A DNA stretch of 32,288 nt from an uncultured Pelagibacteraceae bacterium. GTDB taxonomy: Bacteria; Pseudomonadota; Alphaproteobacteria; Pelagibacterales; Pelagibacteraceae. The DNA lies in assembly GCA_902624495.1 (NCBI GenBank), contig CACNYH010000006.1:1-32288 (forward strand), given 5' to 3'. The notes under the pieces are model-generated. The model was not told the origin of the DNA, did no database searches, and was given only the letters and a program-made list of their open reading frames with translations. A program made the position numbers and the translations under genes. Positions 24,549 through 32,197 of this stretch are shown in pieces (the first letter of the stretch is position 1; the number at the start of each line of letters is the position of its first letter).

Positions 24549-25781
24549 TTGTTTACAAAAGCTGAGAGACTTATTTCATTAAGAAATTTAAAACCCAAAA
24601 AAAAAGAGGGTTTTTTAAAAATTATTTCAATATTTTCATTTCTAGGAATAATGCTTGGAGTTGCCATTCTTATAATTGTAATGTCGGTAATGAATGGATT
24701 TAAAACCGATCTAACACAAAAAATTTTAGGTTTAAACCCACATGTTGTAATTCAACCTAATAATTTTAAAATTAATGATGATTTTATTTTAAAATTAAAA
24801 AATAATTTTGAAAATATAAATTTGAGTAAATCATATTCAGGTGAAGGAATCATAATAAGCAATGAAACTGCTAAAGGTGTGATTTTGAAAGGGATTAATA
24901 AAAATGAAAAAAAAATAATTGAATTTTTTGATAAATTTTCTCCAAAAAACAATATCGAAGATTTTAACTCTAATAATATTTATGTTGGCTCAGAGCTTGC
25001 TTTTGATTTAGGTTTAAAAAAGGGAGACACTTTAAACTTGATGTCTTCAGCTTTTGTTATGACTCCCCTTGGAAGTTTACCTAAACAAGAAAATTTTAAA
25101 GTAGCAGGTATATTTAACACCGGCTTCCTTGATTTTGATCAAAACATTGCGTTTGTAAACATTGAAGACGCTCTTTCAATTTTTGAAAAAGAAAGAGATG
25201 ATCAAAATATTGAAATATATTTGGATGATCCTTTAAGAGCAAATATTTATAAAGATAAAATCCAAAAAATAAATCAAAACTATTTTATTTATACTTGGTC
25301 AGACTTAAATAAATCACTTTTTAGCGCACTTAAAGTTGAGAGAAATGTAATGTTTATTATTCTTTCGCTAATTATTGTAGTGGCTGCTTTCAATATCATT
25401 TCTGGATTGACTATTTTAATTAAGAACAAAACTAAAGAAATAGCAATTTTAAAAACTTTAGGATTAAGCAATCGTTCCATAAGAAAAACATTTTTTTTAA
25501 CTGGTTTAACGATTGGTTTTTTCGCAACAATCAGTGGAATATTGTTTGGAGTTTTATTTTCTTCAAATATTGAAAAAATTAGAATTTTTTTATCAAAAGC
25601 ATTTAATTTTGAAATTTTTCCTTCAGATATTTATTTTTTAGATGAACTACCTAGCGAGATAAATTTAAATTCAATAATAATTATATTCATTATTTCTTTG
25701 GCAATTTCTGCAATTGCTTCATATTTGCCTGCTAGAAAAATTTCAAAAATGAATACTTTTAGAGCTTTAAGATATGAATAA
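24549..25781 (+). CDS. lolC: Lipoprotein-releasing ABC transporter permease (LolC/LolE type)
   Basis: A 410-residue inner-membrane permease that, with LolD, extracts outer-membrane lipoproteins and hands them to LolA. Four membrane helices flank a large periplasmic domain (about 45-260). The N-terminal helix carries the signature FSFLGIMLGVAILIIVMSVMNGF, the later ones follow ERNVMFIILSLIIV, and the end is PARKISKMNTFRALRYE. TTG at 24549 is taken as start: the family N-terminus begins there (MFTKAERLISLRNL), and the first in-frame ATG lies inside the first helix. Only one permease gene is present, so it may act as a homodimer as LolF does; a second copy elsewhere is possible. It overlaps lolD by 8 bp. 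Confidence 0.92.
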   Translation: MFTKAERLISLRNLKPKKKEGFLKIISIFSFLGIMLGVAILIIVMSVMNGFKTDLTQKILGLNPHVVIQPNNFKINDDFILKLKNNFENINLSKSYSGEGIIISNETAKGVILKGINKNEKKIIEFFDKFSPKNNIEDFNSNNIYVGSELAFDLGLKKGDTLNLMSSAFVMTPLGSLPKQENFKVAGIFNTGFLDFDQNIAFVNIEDALSIFEKERDDQNIEIYLDDPLRANIYKDKIQKINQNYFIYTWSDLNKSLFSALKVERNVMFIILSLIIVVAAFNIISGLTILIKNKTKEIAILKTLGLSNRSIRKTFFLTGLTIGFFATISGILFGVLFSSNIEKIRIFLSKAFNFEIFPSDIYFLDELPSEINLNSIIIIFIISLAISAIASYLPARKISKMNTFRALRYE

Positions 25782-26463
25782 AATTTTATTAGAAACAACA
25801 AATCTTAAAAAAAGTTTTGAACATGTGAATGGAAGAATAACTTTATTTGAAAATATAAACTTAAAAATACAAGAGGGTGACCTTGTAGCGTTAGTCGGTC
25901 CCTCTGGTTCTGGAAAATCTTCTTTGCTACATTTACTAGCTTTATTAGATGAGCCGACAAAAGGGGAGATAATATTAAATAAAAAAAAAACTAAAAATCT
26001 CTCAGATAGCCAAAGAGATGAGATTAGAAGAAAATATATTTCTATAATATTTCAAGATAATAATTTATTGACTGACTTTACGGCATTGGAAAATGTAATG
26101 ATGCCCTTAATTATTAATGATGAAAGCAATGATATTATAAAAGAAAAATCTAAAAAAATTTTGAGAGATGTCAAAATTTTAAATAGATCAAATCATTTTC
26201 CAAAAGAACTTTCAGGAGGTGAGCAACAAAGAGTAGCAATCGCAAGAGCTTTGGTAGCAGAAACTAAATTGATTTTAGCAGATGAACCTACAGGTAATTT
26301 AGATTTTAAAACGTCTAGAGAAATTTTTTCACTTTTTTTGAAATTAAAAAAACTGAAAAAAACAATAATATTTGCAACTCATAATAGAGAACTTGCTAAC
26401 AGAGCTGATTACAAGTTGTTTATTTCTGAGGGTAATATAAAACGAGCTAATGCTCTCAAGTGA
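25774..26463 (+). CDS. lolD: Lipoprotein-releasing ABC transporter ATPase
   Basis: A 229-residue ABC ATPase of the MacB/LolD/FtsE group that powers the permease encoded just upstream. Walker A GPSGSGKS (42-49), Q-loop FQDNN (about 93-97), signature LSGGEQQ (146-152), Walker B LILADEP (166-172) and the H-loop in ATHNRE are all present. Pairing with the LolC/E gene, with an 8-bp overlap, supports the Lol assignment over other exporters. It overlaps dnaE by 14 bp. Confidence 0.95.
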   Translation: MNKILLETTNLKKSFEHVNGRITLFENINLKIQEGDLVALVGPSGSGKSSLLHLLALLDEPTKGEIILNKKKTKNLSDSQRDEIRRKYISIIFQDNNLLTDFTALENVMMPLIINDESNDIIKEKSKKILRDVKILNRSNHFPKELSGGEQQRVAIARALVAETKLILADEPTGNLDFKTSREIFSLFLKLKKLKKTIIFATHNRELANRADYKLFISEGNIKRANALK

Positions 26464-29400
26464 CAAAAATTTTAATAACATTAAAATTCACACACAATAT
26501 TCAATTTGCGAAGGTGCAATAAAAATTGATGATTTAGCAGAATATTGCAAAAATAATAAAATTAAATCACTTGGCTTAGCTGATACCCTCAATTTATGTG
26601 GTGCATTAGAATTTTCAGAAAAGCTGTCTAAAGTTGGAACTCAACCAATTATTGGAACTCAAATCAATTTGAAAAGACAAAACATTTTAGGCAAAGTGAC
26701 ATTATTTGCAAAAACTGAGGAGGGTTACAAAAATTTAACAAAATTATCTTCACTAAGCTATTTGAATAGTAAAGAAAATGAAGATCCGGTGTGTGAAATT
26801 GAAGATTTAATTAAAAATAATTATGATTTAATTTTACTAACCGGAAATTATAGAGATTTTTTTGGAAAATTATTTCAAGCGAATAAAATAAAACTTTTCA
26901 ATGAATTATTAAACTTACTTAAAAAAAATTTTGATGATAGAATTTATTTAGAAATTCAAAGACACAAAGAAAATGAAGAAAAAAATTTTGAAAATTTTAT
27001 TCTCAATAATTCTAAGACTTTAAATATTCCCCTAATTGCAACTCAAGAGGTTTTTTACCTTGATAAAGACATGTACGAAGCCCATGATGCTTTAAGATGT
27101 ATTGGAGAAAAAAGTTTTATAGATGATAAAAACAGATTTAGATTAAGTAATGAACATTTTTTGAAATCTACTGATGATATTGTAAAATTATATTCTGATA
27201 TTCCAGAGGCTTTGGAAAACAACTACAATTTTCATTTAAGATTTAATTTTAAACCGAAAAAATCTAAACCGATTTTACCTTCTATTTCCCATTCGGAAAA
27301 CAATAATGCAGAAGAGGAGCTTTTAAATCAAGCAAATGATGGACTAAATAAAAGATTAAAAAATTTCATTATTAAAAAAAATTCATCAAAAAATAAGGAT
27401 CAAATATTCAATGATTATAAAAAAAGACTAAAACATGAAATTAACATTATAAACTCAATGGACTATGCAAGCTATTTCCTAATAGTTTCAGATTATATTA
27501 AATGGGCAAAAAAAAATTCTATTCCAGTGGGACCAGGCAGAGGATCAGGCGCAGGTTCTCTAGTTGCTTATTGTTTGGATATTACTGACCTTGATCCAAT
27601 CGAATACGATTTAATTTTTGAAAGATTCCTAAATCCAGATAGAATTTCGATGCCTGATTTTGATATTGATTTTTGTGAAGAGAAAAGAGACCAAGTTTTC
27701 GAATACTTAAAAAATAAGTACAAAGATGGAGTAGCTCATATTATTACTTTTGGAAAACTTAAAGCTAGAATGGTGCTAAGAGATGTTGGAAGGGTTTTGG
27801 GTTTATCTTATGGTCATGTGGACAGACTTTGCAAAATGGTTCCATTTGACCCATCACGTCCTTTAACGTTGCGAGAGTCAATTGATCGAGAACCACGCTT
27901 TAAAGAAGAGGTTAAAAATAACCCAAAAGTTAAAAAACTTTTAGATTTATCTCTACGTCTTGAGGGTCTAAATAGAAATATGGCAACACATGCCGCGGGA
28001 GTTGTAATAGCTGGTGAGAAATTAGCTGAGCAATTTCCATTATATATCGATCATAGCTCAAACCTAATATTACCATCGACACAATATGACATGTACTCAT
28101 CTGAAAATGCAGGTTTAGTAAAGTTTGATTTGTTAGGTTTAAAAACATTAACCGTAATTGATAAGACTCTAAAAACATTGAGAGCAAAAAATATAAATTT
28201 AGACATAAGCAAAATTAATCAAAACGATGAAAAAGTCTTCTCACTTTTGTCTACTGGAGAAACTACTGGACTTTTTCAATTGGAAAGCGCAGGCATGAGA
28301 GAGGCTATTAAACAAATGAAACCTAGCAGGTTTGATGACATAATAGCCTTAGTTGCACTTTATCGTCCCGGTCCAATGAGCAATATTCCTATTTATAATG
28401 ATTGTAAAAATGGATTGAGAGAACCAGATTATATTCACCATACTTTAAAAGATATTCTGAAATCAACTTACGGTATAATTATTTATCAAGAACAAGTTAT
28501 GCAAATTGCTCAAACATTAGCAGGATTTACTGCAGGAGAAGCTGACATATTAAGACGTGCAATGGGAAAAAAGAAAAAAGCTGAACTTGACAAACAAAAA
28601 GAAAGATTTGTTAATGGCGCTATCAAAAATGGGATTGCAAAAGACGTAGCAAATTTTGTTTTTACAAAAATAGAACCATTTGCTCAATATGGATTTAATA
28701 AGAGTCATGCAGCCGCATACGCATTAATTGCATACCAAACAGCATATTTAAAAACATATCACAAAGAGGATTTTATAGCAGCCACAATGACGACTGAACT
28801 CACTAATACATCTAAATTAAGAGAATTTGTGGAGGAATTAAAAAGATTAAAAGTTGAGATAATTAGACCCTCGATAAATGCATGTTTTGCAGAATTTAAA
28901 GCCAAAGAAGGAAAAATTATTTATGGTTTAGGAGCAATTAAAAATGTTGGTTTTGAAGCAATTTCTAACATTTTAAAAGAAAGAGAGAATAATGGAAAAT
29001 TTAAATCATTTTCCGATTTTATAAATAGAGTAGATGCAAAAGACGTGAATAAATTACAATTAGAAGGTTTGACTAAAGCTGGTGTGTTTGATGAATTAGA
29101 AAAAGATAGAAGTAAAATTTACAACTCAATACCTAAAATAATTCAAAAAATAAAGAATATTAATGAAGATAAAACTAATAACCAAAGTAGTCTTTTTGGA
29201 AATAGCGAAAATCAAGAAAATGAATTTGAGTTTGTTTCATCTAGTGTCTGGGAACAAAAGGAAGTTTTGTCTGAAGAGTTTAAGTCGTTAGGTTTTTATA
29301 TTTCTGATCATCCGTTAAATGAATATGAAGATATATTTAATCAATTAAAAGTTATTTCTTATGACCACTTTCTTAATATTGATGTTAATGAAGGATTAGT

Positions 29401-29866
29401 TGCGGGTACAATAATGTCTATTCAAGAGAAAAAAAGCGCTAAAGGTACACCTTATGCCATTATAAAATTTAGCGATAAAACAAGAGAGTTTGAGCTGTTT
29501 TTATTTTCTGAAATGCTAGTAAAAAATAGAGAGAAATTGAAAGAGTCAGAGTCTTTCGTTCTAACCCTGCAAAAAGAAAAAACTAGTGGAGACACAGAAA
29601 GAAGGAGATTAAACGTTAAAAAAATATTATCGCTCGATGAACTAATAAATGAACCTTATTCAAAAGTTACAATTGAATTAAAAGATAATTTTGAGGTTAA
29701 TGATATTAGAAATATTTTATCAAAAAAAGGGAACACTAAGGTTAATTTGATTATAAATAAAAACAACCAAAAAGCTTGTTATTCATTGCAAAATAATAGA
29801 AAATTTGATTTAGATCATTATAATCTCTTAAAATCAAAGGAATATGTGCTAAAAATAATCGTTTAG
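26450..29866 (+). CDS. dnaE: DNA polymerase III subunit alpha
   Basis: The 1138-residue catalytic subunit of the replicative polymerase, close to E. coli DnaE (1160). The order is PHP domain (1-270), palm/fingers, tandem HhH region, OB-fold (from about 980) and C-terminal tau-binding part. Catalytic aspartates are D403 and D405 in PDFDIDF and D560 in KFDLLGLKTL. GPGRGSGAGSLVAYCLD and YGFNKSHAAAYALIAYQTAY are conserved. The PHP metal site is degenerate (IHTQYS and LADTLNLCG instead of HxH and TDH), as in other proteobacterial DnaE proteins, so it should not bind metals or proofread. It starts inside lolD (14-bp overlap); no better start is visible. Confidence 0.97.
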   Translation: MLSSDKNFNNIKIHTQYSICEGAIKIDDLAEYCKNNKIKSLGLADTLNLCGALEFSEKLSKVGTQPIIGTQINLKRQNILGKVTLFAKTEEGYKNLTKLSSLSYLNSKENEDPVCEIEDLIKNNYDLILLTGNYRDFFGKLFQANKIKLFNELLNLLKKNFDDRIYLEIQRHKENEEKNFENFILNNSKTLNIPLIATQEVFYLDKDMYEAHDALRCIGEKSFIDDKNRFRLSNEHFLKSTDDIVKLYSDIPEALENNYNFHLRFNFKPKKSKPILPSISHSENNNAEEELLNQANDGLNKRLKNFIIKKNSSKNKDQIFNDYKKRLKHEINIINSMDYASYFLIVSDYIKWAKKNSIPVGPGRGSGAGSLVAYCLDITDLDPIEYDLIFERFLNPDRISMPDFDIDFCEEKRDQVFEYLKNKYKDGVAHIITFGKLKARMVLRDVGRVLGLSYGHVDRLCKMVPFDPSRPLTLRESIDREPRFKEEVKNNPKVKKLLDLSLRLEGLNRNMATHAAGVVIAGEKLAEQFPLYIDHSSNLILPSTQYDMYSSENAGLVKFDLLGLKTLTVIDKTLKTLRAKNINLDISKINQNDEKVFSLLSTGETTGLFQLESAGMREAIKQMKPSRFDDIIALVALYRPGPMSNIPIYNDCKNGLREPDYIHHTLKDILKSTYGIIIYQEQVMQIAQTLAGFTAGEADILRRAMGKKKKAELDKQKERFVNGAIKNGIAKDVANFVFTKIEPFAQYGFNKSHAAAYALIAYQTAYLKTYHKEDFIAATMTTELTNTSKLREFVEELKRLKVEIIRPSINACFAEFKAKEGKIIYGLGAIKNVGFEAISNILKERENNGKFKSFSDFINRVDAKDVNKLQLEGLTKAGVFDELEKDRSKIYNSIPKIIQKIKNINEDKTNNQSSLFGNSENQENEFEFVSSSVWEQKEVLSEEFKSLGFYISDHPLNEYEDIFNQLKVISYDHFLNIDVNEGLVAGTIMSIQEKKSAKGTPYAIIKFSDKTREFELFLFSEMLVKNREKLKESESFVLTLQKEKTSGDTERRRLNVKKILSLDELINEPYSKVTIELKDNFEVNDIRNILSKKGNTKVNLIINKNNQKACYSLQNNRKFDLDHYNLLKSKEYVLKIIV

Positions 29867-29910: not shown

Positions 29911-29986
29911 CGCACACAGTTAAAAGGGCAAAGCCCTACCGGTCCATATATTTGGAATTACTGTGGTGGATTAACCGGAAAAAAAA
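29911..29986 (+). ncRNA. rpsB: Ribosomal protein S2 leader RNA (cis-regulatory)
   Basis: The spacer before rpsB is richer in G+C than its surroundings and can fold as a pseudoknot. Stem A is CACAGT (29915-29920) with ACTGTG (29960-29965), extended by CA/TG around a bulged G. A hairpin AGGGC-AAA-GCCCT spans 29925-29937. Stem B is CCGGT (29939-29943) with ACCGG (29974-29978). B begins inside A and closes after it. The GGA at 29977-29979, 7 nt before the ATG, is the only Shine-Dalgarno-like element, and its GG lies in stem B, so the folded leader should block translation. A cis-regulatory motif before the S2 gene was reported from Pelagibacter by comparative genomics. That this is that motif, and that S2 is the ligand, is inferred from position. 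Confidence 0.8.
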
Positions 29987-30745
29987 ATGAACGTACCAAA
30001 AATAGATATTAAACAACTATTAGAAGCAGGCGTGCATCTTGGACACAAAACTTTAAGATGGAACCCAAAAATGAAAAAATACATTTTTGGAGAAAAAAAT
30101 TCAATTCACATAATTGATTTAACACAAACAGTGGAATTCCTAAAAAACGCACTTGTAAAGGTACATAACGTTATATCTGCGGGTGGAAAATTATTGATTG
30201 TTTCTACCAAAAAACAAGCCTCAGAACAAATAAGTGACTTAGCAAAAGACACAAAACAGTTTTATGTTAATTACAGATGGCTAGGTGGAATGTTAACTAA
30301 TTGGAATACAATTCAAAATTCAATTAAAAGACTTAAAAAATTAGAAGATCAATTATCTAAAGAAAATTTGGGATTCACCAAAAAAGAAATTTTAAAATTT
30401 GGCAAGGAAAAAGAAAAACTCCAGAGATCTCTTGGCGGAATCGCAGAGATGAAAAAAACACCTGAATTGATTTTCATAATTGACACTAATATAGAATCTC
30501 TTGCTGTAGCTGAAGCCAAAAAACTTGGTATCCCAATTATAGGAATTTTAGATACTAATTCTGATCCAACTGGAATTGATTTTCCAATTCCAGGTAATGA
30601 TGATGCTAGGCGGTCTATTAATCTTTATTGCGATCTTTTAAAAAATACGATTAAAGATGCTGAAAAATTTATCAAAGGGCCTGACGAAAACCAAAAAAAG
30701 GCAAAAGAAGAAAAAAATAAAAATCCAATAAATAAAAAAAAATAA
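29987..30745 (+). CDS. rpsB: 30S ribosomal protein S2
   Basis: A 252-residue protein of the small ribosomal subunit body that binds late in assembly next to S1. Family signatures are [19 protein letters not shown] near the start, [11 protein letters not shown] in the middle, and [12 protein letters not shown] with [10 protein letters not shown] towards the end. A lysine-rich tail of about 25 residues follows the core. The start ATG is preceded by an A-run and only a minimal GGA. Expression is probably controlled by the leader directly upstream. It is followed by tsf after 19 bp. Confidence 0.98.
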
Positions 30746-30764: not shown

Positions 30765-31631
30765 ATGTCAAATAAAAGCTTATTAGATAATATTAAAAAA
30801 TTAAGAGAGTTAACGGGGGTAGGTTTCAATGATTGCAAAGTTGCTCTAGAAGAAAATGATGGAGTAATAGAGAAATCAATAGAATTTTTGAGAAAAAAAG
30901 GAATTGCTAAAGCTTCAAAAAAAATGTCTAGGACTGCAAGTGAAGGTTTAGCTTTAGTCAGTGAAGAAAATGGAGAAGTAGCAGTCATTGAGATAAATAG
31001 CGAGACAGATTTTGTTGCAAAAAATCAGGATTTTATAAATTTCTGTAAAGAATTATCCAGCTTAAACTTGAAAAATAAAGGTGATTTAAAAAAACTTGAT
31101 GAGTCAAAAATGTCTAGCGGCCTCTTAGTAAAAGATAGTTTGATAAATTTAATATCAAAAATAGGAGAAAAAATCACAATAAGAAGAGCACATTTTTTTA
31201 ATAACTCCTCTGGTATAAATTTCTTTTACGTACATTCTGCTATAGAAAAAAATATTGGCAAGATAGTTTCGATTATAAAATTAGGAAACGCAGATAAGAC
31301 TCAGGATCAGGATTTAGGTAATAAATTATCAATGCATATTGCTGCTTCAAATCCTTTAGCAATAGATAAAGATGGAATTGATAAAAAGATTGTCGATAAA
31401 GAACTAGAAATTATTAAAGCTGAAGTTATAAATTCTGGGAAGCCAAAAGAATTGGCAGAAAAAATATCTAAAGGAAAGATTGCGAAATTTTTAAACGACA
31501 ACTCACTTTTAAACCAAATTTGGATAATGGATCCAAAAAAAACTGTTAAAGATATTCTGAAAGAGAATTCAATAAATAAAGAAATTAAAGTACTGGATTA
31601 TATCAGGTATAAAGTAGGTGAAGGTGTTTAA
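30765..31631 (+). CDS. tsf: Elongation factor Ts
   Basis: A 288-residue nucleotide-exchange factor that regenerates EF-Tu-GTP. The N-terminal UBA-like domain (LRELTGVGFNDCKVALEE, 13-30) and the exchange motif TDFVAKN (81-87) are intact. Two dimerisation-type repeats follow, and the protein ends normally. Order rpsB-tsf is near universal. No clear Shine-Dalgarno is seen. frr starts 5 bp downstream, where pyrH is usually found. Confidence 0.98.
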   Translation: MSNKSLLDNIKKLRELTGVGFNDCKVALEENDGVIEKSIEFLRKKGIAKASKKMSRTASEGLALVSEENGEVAVIEINSETDFVAKNQDFINFCKELSSLNLKNKGDLKKLDESKMSSGLLVKDSLINLISKIGEKITIRRAHFFNNSSGINFFYVHSAIEKNIGKIVSIIKLGNADKTQDQDLGNKLSMHIAASNPLAIDKDGIDKKIVDKELEIIKAEVINSGKPKELAEKISKGKIAKFLNDNSLLNQIWIMDPKKTVKDILKENSINKEIKVLDYIRYKVGEGV

Positions 31632-31636
31632 TATCA

Positions 31637-32197
31637 ATGAGCACAGAATTTAATCAAAATAATTATTCAATTAAAATGGATAAAAGCATATCCTCTTTTA
31701 AAAAAGATATTTCAACATTAAGAACAGGAAGAGCCAATACAAATATGCTAGATACGATAAAAGTAGATTGTTATGGTCAATTAATGCCCATTGAACAACT
31801 CGCGACTGTGAGTGTGCCAGAGGCAAGATTAATTTCCATTCAAGTTTGGGATAAAACTAACGTAGCTCTTATAGACTCTGCAATTCAAAAATCTGAACTT
31901 GGAATTAACCCTCAGATTGATAGCCAAACTATAAGATTGAGAATTCCAGATCTTACTGAAGAAAGGAGAAAAGATTTAATAAAAGTTTTAAAAAATATGA
32001 GTGAAAAAAGTAAAATTTCAATAAGAAATATCAGAAGAGAGGCTAATGAGGAATTAAAAAGAAAACTCAAAGATAAAACTATTTCTGAAGATCAGAATAA
32101 AAATTTTGAAAAAATAATTCAAAAAATTACCGACACAAGTATAGACAATATTGAAAAAATAACCTCAGAGAAAGAAAAAGAGATAATTCAAATATGA
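31637..32197 (+). CDS. frr: Ribosome recycling factor
   Basis: A 186-residue factor that, with EF-G, splits the post-termination ribosome. The typical features are FKKDISTLRTGRANTNMLD near the N-terminus, the hinge region GQLMPIEQLATVSVPEAR, and LTEERRKDLIKVLKNMSEK leading into the long C-terminal helix. Length matches the family (about 185). Its stop overlaps the uppS start by 4 bp (ATGA). Confidence 0.98.
   Translation: MSTEFNQNNYSIKMDKSISSFKKDISTLRTGRANTNMLDTIKVDCYGQLMPIEQLATVSVPEARLISIQVWDKTNVALIDSAIQKSELGINPQIDSQTIRLRIPDLTEERRKDLIKVLKNMSEKSKISIRNIRREANEELKRKLKDKTISEDQNKNFEKIIQKITDTSIDNIEKITSEKEKEIIQI

Follow-up and report, generated by a model that had tools for sequence, protein, structure and literature searches.

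The window, a stretch of 32,288 nucleotides of DNA from an uncultured member of the Pelagibacteraceae, contains the rpsB-tsf-frr gene region and, directly upstream, a leader that begins 44 bases after the end of the neighbouring dnaE gene. No intrinsic terminator was found when the rpsB leader was searched. The genes and the elements of the leader are listed below with the evidence for each in brackets.

26450-29866, forward strand: dnaE, DNA polymerase III subunit alpha (NCBIfam NF004226, E 0)
29911-29920, forward strand: 5' strand of stem P1 with A29914 bulged, the stem A of the original prediction (sequence, Rfam, minimum-free-energy fold, covariation in 77 leaders)
29925-29937, forward strand: P2 hairpin AGGGC-AAA-GCCCU (minimum-free-energy fold; kept with altered letters in relatives)
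29939-29943, forward strand: 5' strand of the pseudoknot, CCGGU, in J2-3, the stem B of the original prediction (sequence, covariation)
29943-29956, forward strand: P3 hairpin UCCA-UAUAUU-UGGA (minimum-free-energy fold)
29960-29968, forward strand: 3' strand of P1, ACUGUGGUG (sequence, Rfam, minimum-free-energy fold, covariation)
29974-29978, forward strand: 3' strand of the pseudoknot, ACCGG, at -13 to -9 relative to the AUG (sequence, covariation)
29977-29979, forward strand: GGA, the only Shine-Dalgarno-like triplet at normal spacing, 7 bases from the AUG (sequence, Shine-Dalgarno analysis)
29987-30745, forward strand: rpsB, ribosomal protein S2 (TIGR01011, E 8.6e-94)
30765-31631, forward strand: tsf, elongation factor Ts (TIGR00116, E 6.2e-75)
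31637-32197, forward strand: frr, ribosome recycling factor (TIGR00496, E 3e-62)

The original prediction was that stems A and B interleave as a pseudoknot, and direct reading of the sequence agrees, as CACACAGU (29913-29920) faces ACUGUGGUG (29960-29968) and CCGGU faces ACCGG. Both stems had been described as fully paired apart from one bulged G. There is one bulge and CCGGU and ACCGG are perfectly complementary, but the bulged base is A29914 rather than G29965. Hairpins P2 and P3 were absent from that description; U29943 is common to P3 and the 5' strand of the pseudoknot, so that one of the two must be a pair shorter. The GG of the GGA at 29977-29979 is part of the pseudoknot stem as had been proposed, although this GGA is not the only one, a second being located at 29968-29970, 16 bases from the AUG and beyond the usual Shine-Dalgarno range.

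When the leader was dinucleotide-shuffled 3000 times, 18 of the shuffled sequences (0.6%) held interleaved stems that were equally strict, and single-sequence folding was only mildly better than that of shuffled sequences (z -1.54), a value at which thermodynamics alone is insufficient to establish a structure. A strict scan for interleaved stems on both strands of the whole window returned two places, the leader and one near 25021; the latter, at 25014-25110, is likely a chance occurrence. The shuffle rate makes chance unlikely but not absurd, and it is therefore conservation that decides.

The pseudoknot is confirmed as real but was already published as part of the rpsB motif, a putative S2 autoregulatory leader described in 2009 from the close relative 'Ca. 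Pelagibacter ubique' (Meyer et al., BMC Genomics 10:268; PMC2704228). A focused Rfam scan matched RF01815 'rpsB' to positions 29911-29995 with 31.9 bits and an E value of 1.5e-4. The curated cut-off of 40 bits is reached neither here nor in 396 of the 397 family genomes searched, so that routine annotation misses the leader; the low score is a matter of the annotation threshold. The leader lies directly upstream of rpsB and has a long, covarying P1 of nine pairs, P2 and P3 as the variable arms of a three-stem junction in the predicted fold, and a pseudoknot of five pairs formed by J2-3 and the 3' extension that follows P1. Comparison with the published motif, which occupies the same dnaE-rpsB gap and has the same pseudoknot and a P1 enclosing P2 and P3, equates stem A with P1 and stem B with the pseudoknot (PMC2704228). 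This order of genes, the base composition and the searches point to a SAR11-like organism as the source of the window. The window differs in its predicted P2 of five pairs and P3 of four pairs, compared to three and two in Ca. P. ubique (PMC2704228). The main text of Meyer et al. makes no mention of a Shine-Dalgarno sequence or of an overlap with it (PMC2704228). The t44 model (RF00127), which describes the gamma-proteobacterial S2 leader, gave no match in the genome, and the leader is not placed in that family. The SAM-V riboswitch of SAR11 likewise has a pseudoknot within 10 bases of a start codon and occurs in the same organisms, but differs in sequence, ligand and genes, and no membership is claimed for the leader in the window (PMC2704228).

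With RF01815 as the model and a strict filter, a single match per genome was obtained for 145 of 240 Alphaproteobacteria; in the family to which the window belongs, this held for 228 of 397 genomes. The rpsB genes of the order were also retrieved by protein and their upstream regions then read, which avoids a choice of leaders based on structure, and the element was present in every readable leader obtained in this way, including those of genomes missed by the model (for example G312, G354, G372 and G416). One SAR11-family leader (L138:1405-1503) has a P2 that is about 20 bases longer and forms an extended hairpin.

Covariation in P1 was assessed in an alignment of 77 dissimilar leaders of the order. 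In the Rfam register 98.1% of the cells were paired and two-sided changes occurred in six of the nine pairs. This register has A29914 bulged, as does the minimum-free-energy fold, and pairs 29911-29913 with 29966-29968, where two-sided changes were seen at the outer pairs; the register with G29965 bulged, in which 95.3% of the cells were paired, was rejected. For the structure as a whole the covariation score was 0.230, compared with 0.090 for shuffled and 0.010-0.084 for slid alignments. RNAalifold returned the six inner P1 pairs alone, pseudoknots being beyond what this program models.

None of the 180 leaders of the order that were parsed has a disrupted pseudoknot stem, and the stem is nearly invariant there; the shifted strand ('AACCG') given for two leaders in one parse and for five in another represents one-base alignment shifts in which the letters ACCGG are present. 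With so little variation to judge by, CCGGU and ACCGG might be conserved as sequences contacted by a protein rather than through pairing. The pseudoknot was examined in 308 leaders, with the 5' strand chosen by its likeness to CCGGU and blind to complementarity. Two-sided changes were found at four of the five pairs, and pairing was complete in 15 of 17 non-consensus cases, whereas shuffling gave a mean of 7.3 and never reached 15 in 5000 rounds; this shuffle ignores relatedness, yet the changes are of several kinds and in different families. Compensated variants across the class included CUGGU/ACCAG, UCGGU/ACCGA, CCAGU/ACUGG and CCGAU/AUCGG, and within the order L105 had changed on both sides to CCUGU/ACAGG. 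Such compensation refutes the protein-contact explanation in the main and leaves it very improbable. Chance complementarity in an AT-rich gap, where CCGG is its own reverse complement, draws on the fraction of shuffles that hold a comparable pseudoknot, but is refuted by the covariation in both stems and by a fold that is conserved in every leader parsed from the order, and its likelihood is negligible. The absence of compensatory changes in homologous leaders had been named in advance as grounds for discarding the predicted fold, and compensatory changes are present in stems A and B alike. Judged by sequence comparison, evolution supports both P1 and the pseudoknot stem.

The two-sided change in L105 (L105:2185-2263, genome G729) spares the GG of the ribosome site and is a natural counterpart of the ideal test mutant.

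The position of the pseudoknot relative to the ribosome site was compared in 158 SAR11-type leaders, 22 leaders of the sister family and 111 others, nearly all from Alphaproteobacteria. Across the order the pseudoknot ends 2-10 bases before the AUG, and the median distance was 8 bases in the SAR11-type leaders, 9 in the sister family and 16 in the others. A Shine-Dalgarno tetramer wholly downstream of the pseudoknot was present in 2 of 158 SAR11-type leaders, in none of the 22 from the sister family and in 97 of the 111 others, while in the sister family GGAG straddles the edge of the pseudoknot in 22 of 22. The median anti-Shine-Dalgarno energy downstream of the pseudoknot was 0.0, -0.1 and -6.0 kcal/mol for these three groups respectively, and became -3.5, -6.6 and -6.8 kcal/mol when the 3' strand was freed. 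The Rfam model includes the Shine-Dalgarno sequence and may have biased the comparison set, so a further 67 were retrieved through the protein, many of them in genomes missed by the model; among the 59 with an ACCGG-like strand, 52 had a free Shine-Dalgarno sequence.

Burial of the ribosome site, as originally predicted, therefore holds by geometry in the order of the window, where the AUG follows within 2-10 bases and nearly all of the anti-Shine-Dalgarno match lies in or against stem B, but does not extend to most Alphaproteobacteria, in which the Shine-Dalgarno sequence is free downstream. These data support burial as a trait of this order. No earlier description of this shift was found in the literature compared, which was a limited set.

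Small AT-rich genomes outside the order were found to keep a separate Shine-Dalgarno sequence (for example L249, 1.2 Mb; L287 and L311, 1.4 Mb). Two other alphaproteobacterial leaders from small genomes outside the order, L366 (G008) and L373 (G030), have a GGAGG that overlaps the pseudoknot strand (AACCGGAGG, gap 8-9). These are a stronger version of the overlap in the order, and such exceptions indicate either several origins of the overlap or its sharing with other small-genome lineages. In L354 (G089, 1.1 Mb) some 75 bases apparently separate the S2 motif, here with CCAGU/ACUGG, from the start codon downstream of it, and an extra AT-rich stretch and a separate Shine-Dalgarno sequence are located in this interval.

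The Shine-Dalgarno sequence of the window is weak (GGA, -3.5 kcal/mol). Use of such sequences was estimated on 20 kb stretches (L321-L332; G480, G207 and G748) with simple ORF calls, giving a lead only, and reached 30% of ORFs against a background of 10% in the genus of the window; in a sister genus (g3) it was 14% against 12%, which is no enrichment by this simple test. The anti-Shine-Dalgarno tail CCTCC is present in relatives with an assembled 16S gene, and bS1 is encoded in the order. With a weak Shine-Dalgarno sequence here and modest or undetectable use in the order, blocking of the 30S footprint may be more important than concealment of the Shine-Dalgarno sequence itself.

In E. coli, autorepression of rpsB-tsf by S2 is established and requires S1, and the ribosome binding site is reported to lie outside the S2 operator (review PMC10931766). 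The E. coli rpsB-tsf leader (t44, RF00127; Aseev et al. 2008, reviewed in PMC10931766) shares with the window the rpsB-tsf order and the presumed ligand S2, but in the window the ribosome binding site is inside the pseudoknot. The fold, its conservation and covariation and the overlap with the ribosome site were observed directly: P1 carries P2 and P3, and the CCGGU junction pairs with ACCGG just past P1 to form the pseudoknot. We propose that excess S2 would most probably bind and stabilise the fold, reducing translation of rpsB and, by coupling, that of tsf. In this order the 3' strand of the pseudoknot coincides with the ribosome site (-13 to -9), and closure of the pseudoknot and binding of the 30S subunit would be mutually exclusive. 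That S2 is the ligand in this lineage and that repression works through occlusion of the site are plausible inferences. If the pseudoknot closed even in the absence of S2, an essential gene would be shut off, which means that the stability of the pseudoknot must be marginal or dependent on S2. We consider it fairly probable that the element is an S2 autoregulatory leader with its ribosome site in the pseudoknot, where closure by S2 excludes 30S binding and the reverse.

It is also conceivable, although rather unlikely, that S2 acts via the same fold without covering the Shine-Dalgarno sequence, for example through an inactive 30S complex or through S1, and that the overlap arose as a side effect when the intergenic gap shrank in a streamlined genome. 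The E. coli ribosome binding site outside the operator and the need for S1 (PMC10931766) fit such an explanation, as does the free Shine-Dalgarno sequence of most Alphaproteobacteria, since the ancestral mechanism cannot then rest on its pairing. Some members of the order also make only weak use of Shine-Dalgarno sequences, and this, the weak sequence in the window and the E. coli arrangement count against the proposed mechanism. However, small genomes such as those of L249, L287 and L311 keep a separate Shine-Dalgarno sequence, which argues that a small genome does not in itself impose the overlap, and all sister-family leaders compared have GGAG placed precisely over the edge of the pseudoknot. 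Returning to direct competition between S2 and the 30S subunit, we suggest, with slightly more doubt than confidence, that the S2 operator has merged with the ribosome site in the Pelagibacterales. The free Shine-Dalgarno sequence would have been lost and the pseudoknot 3' strand left as the sole element for ribosome attachment, which would turn a distant operator into a direct competition switch.

As the element itself was already published, the gain lies in its lineage-specific variation and in a cleaner experimental handle. A lineage in which operator and ribosome site overlap is a simpler and testable case than E. coli, and if the proposal is true, the commonest bacteria of the ocean would here have a feedback control of ribosome synthesis, of which few are known there.
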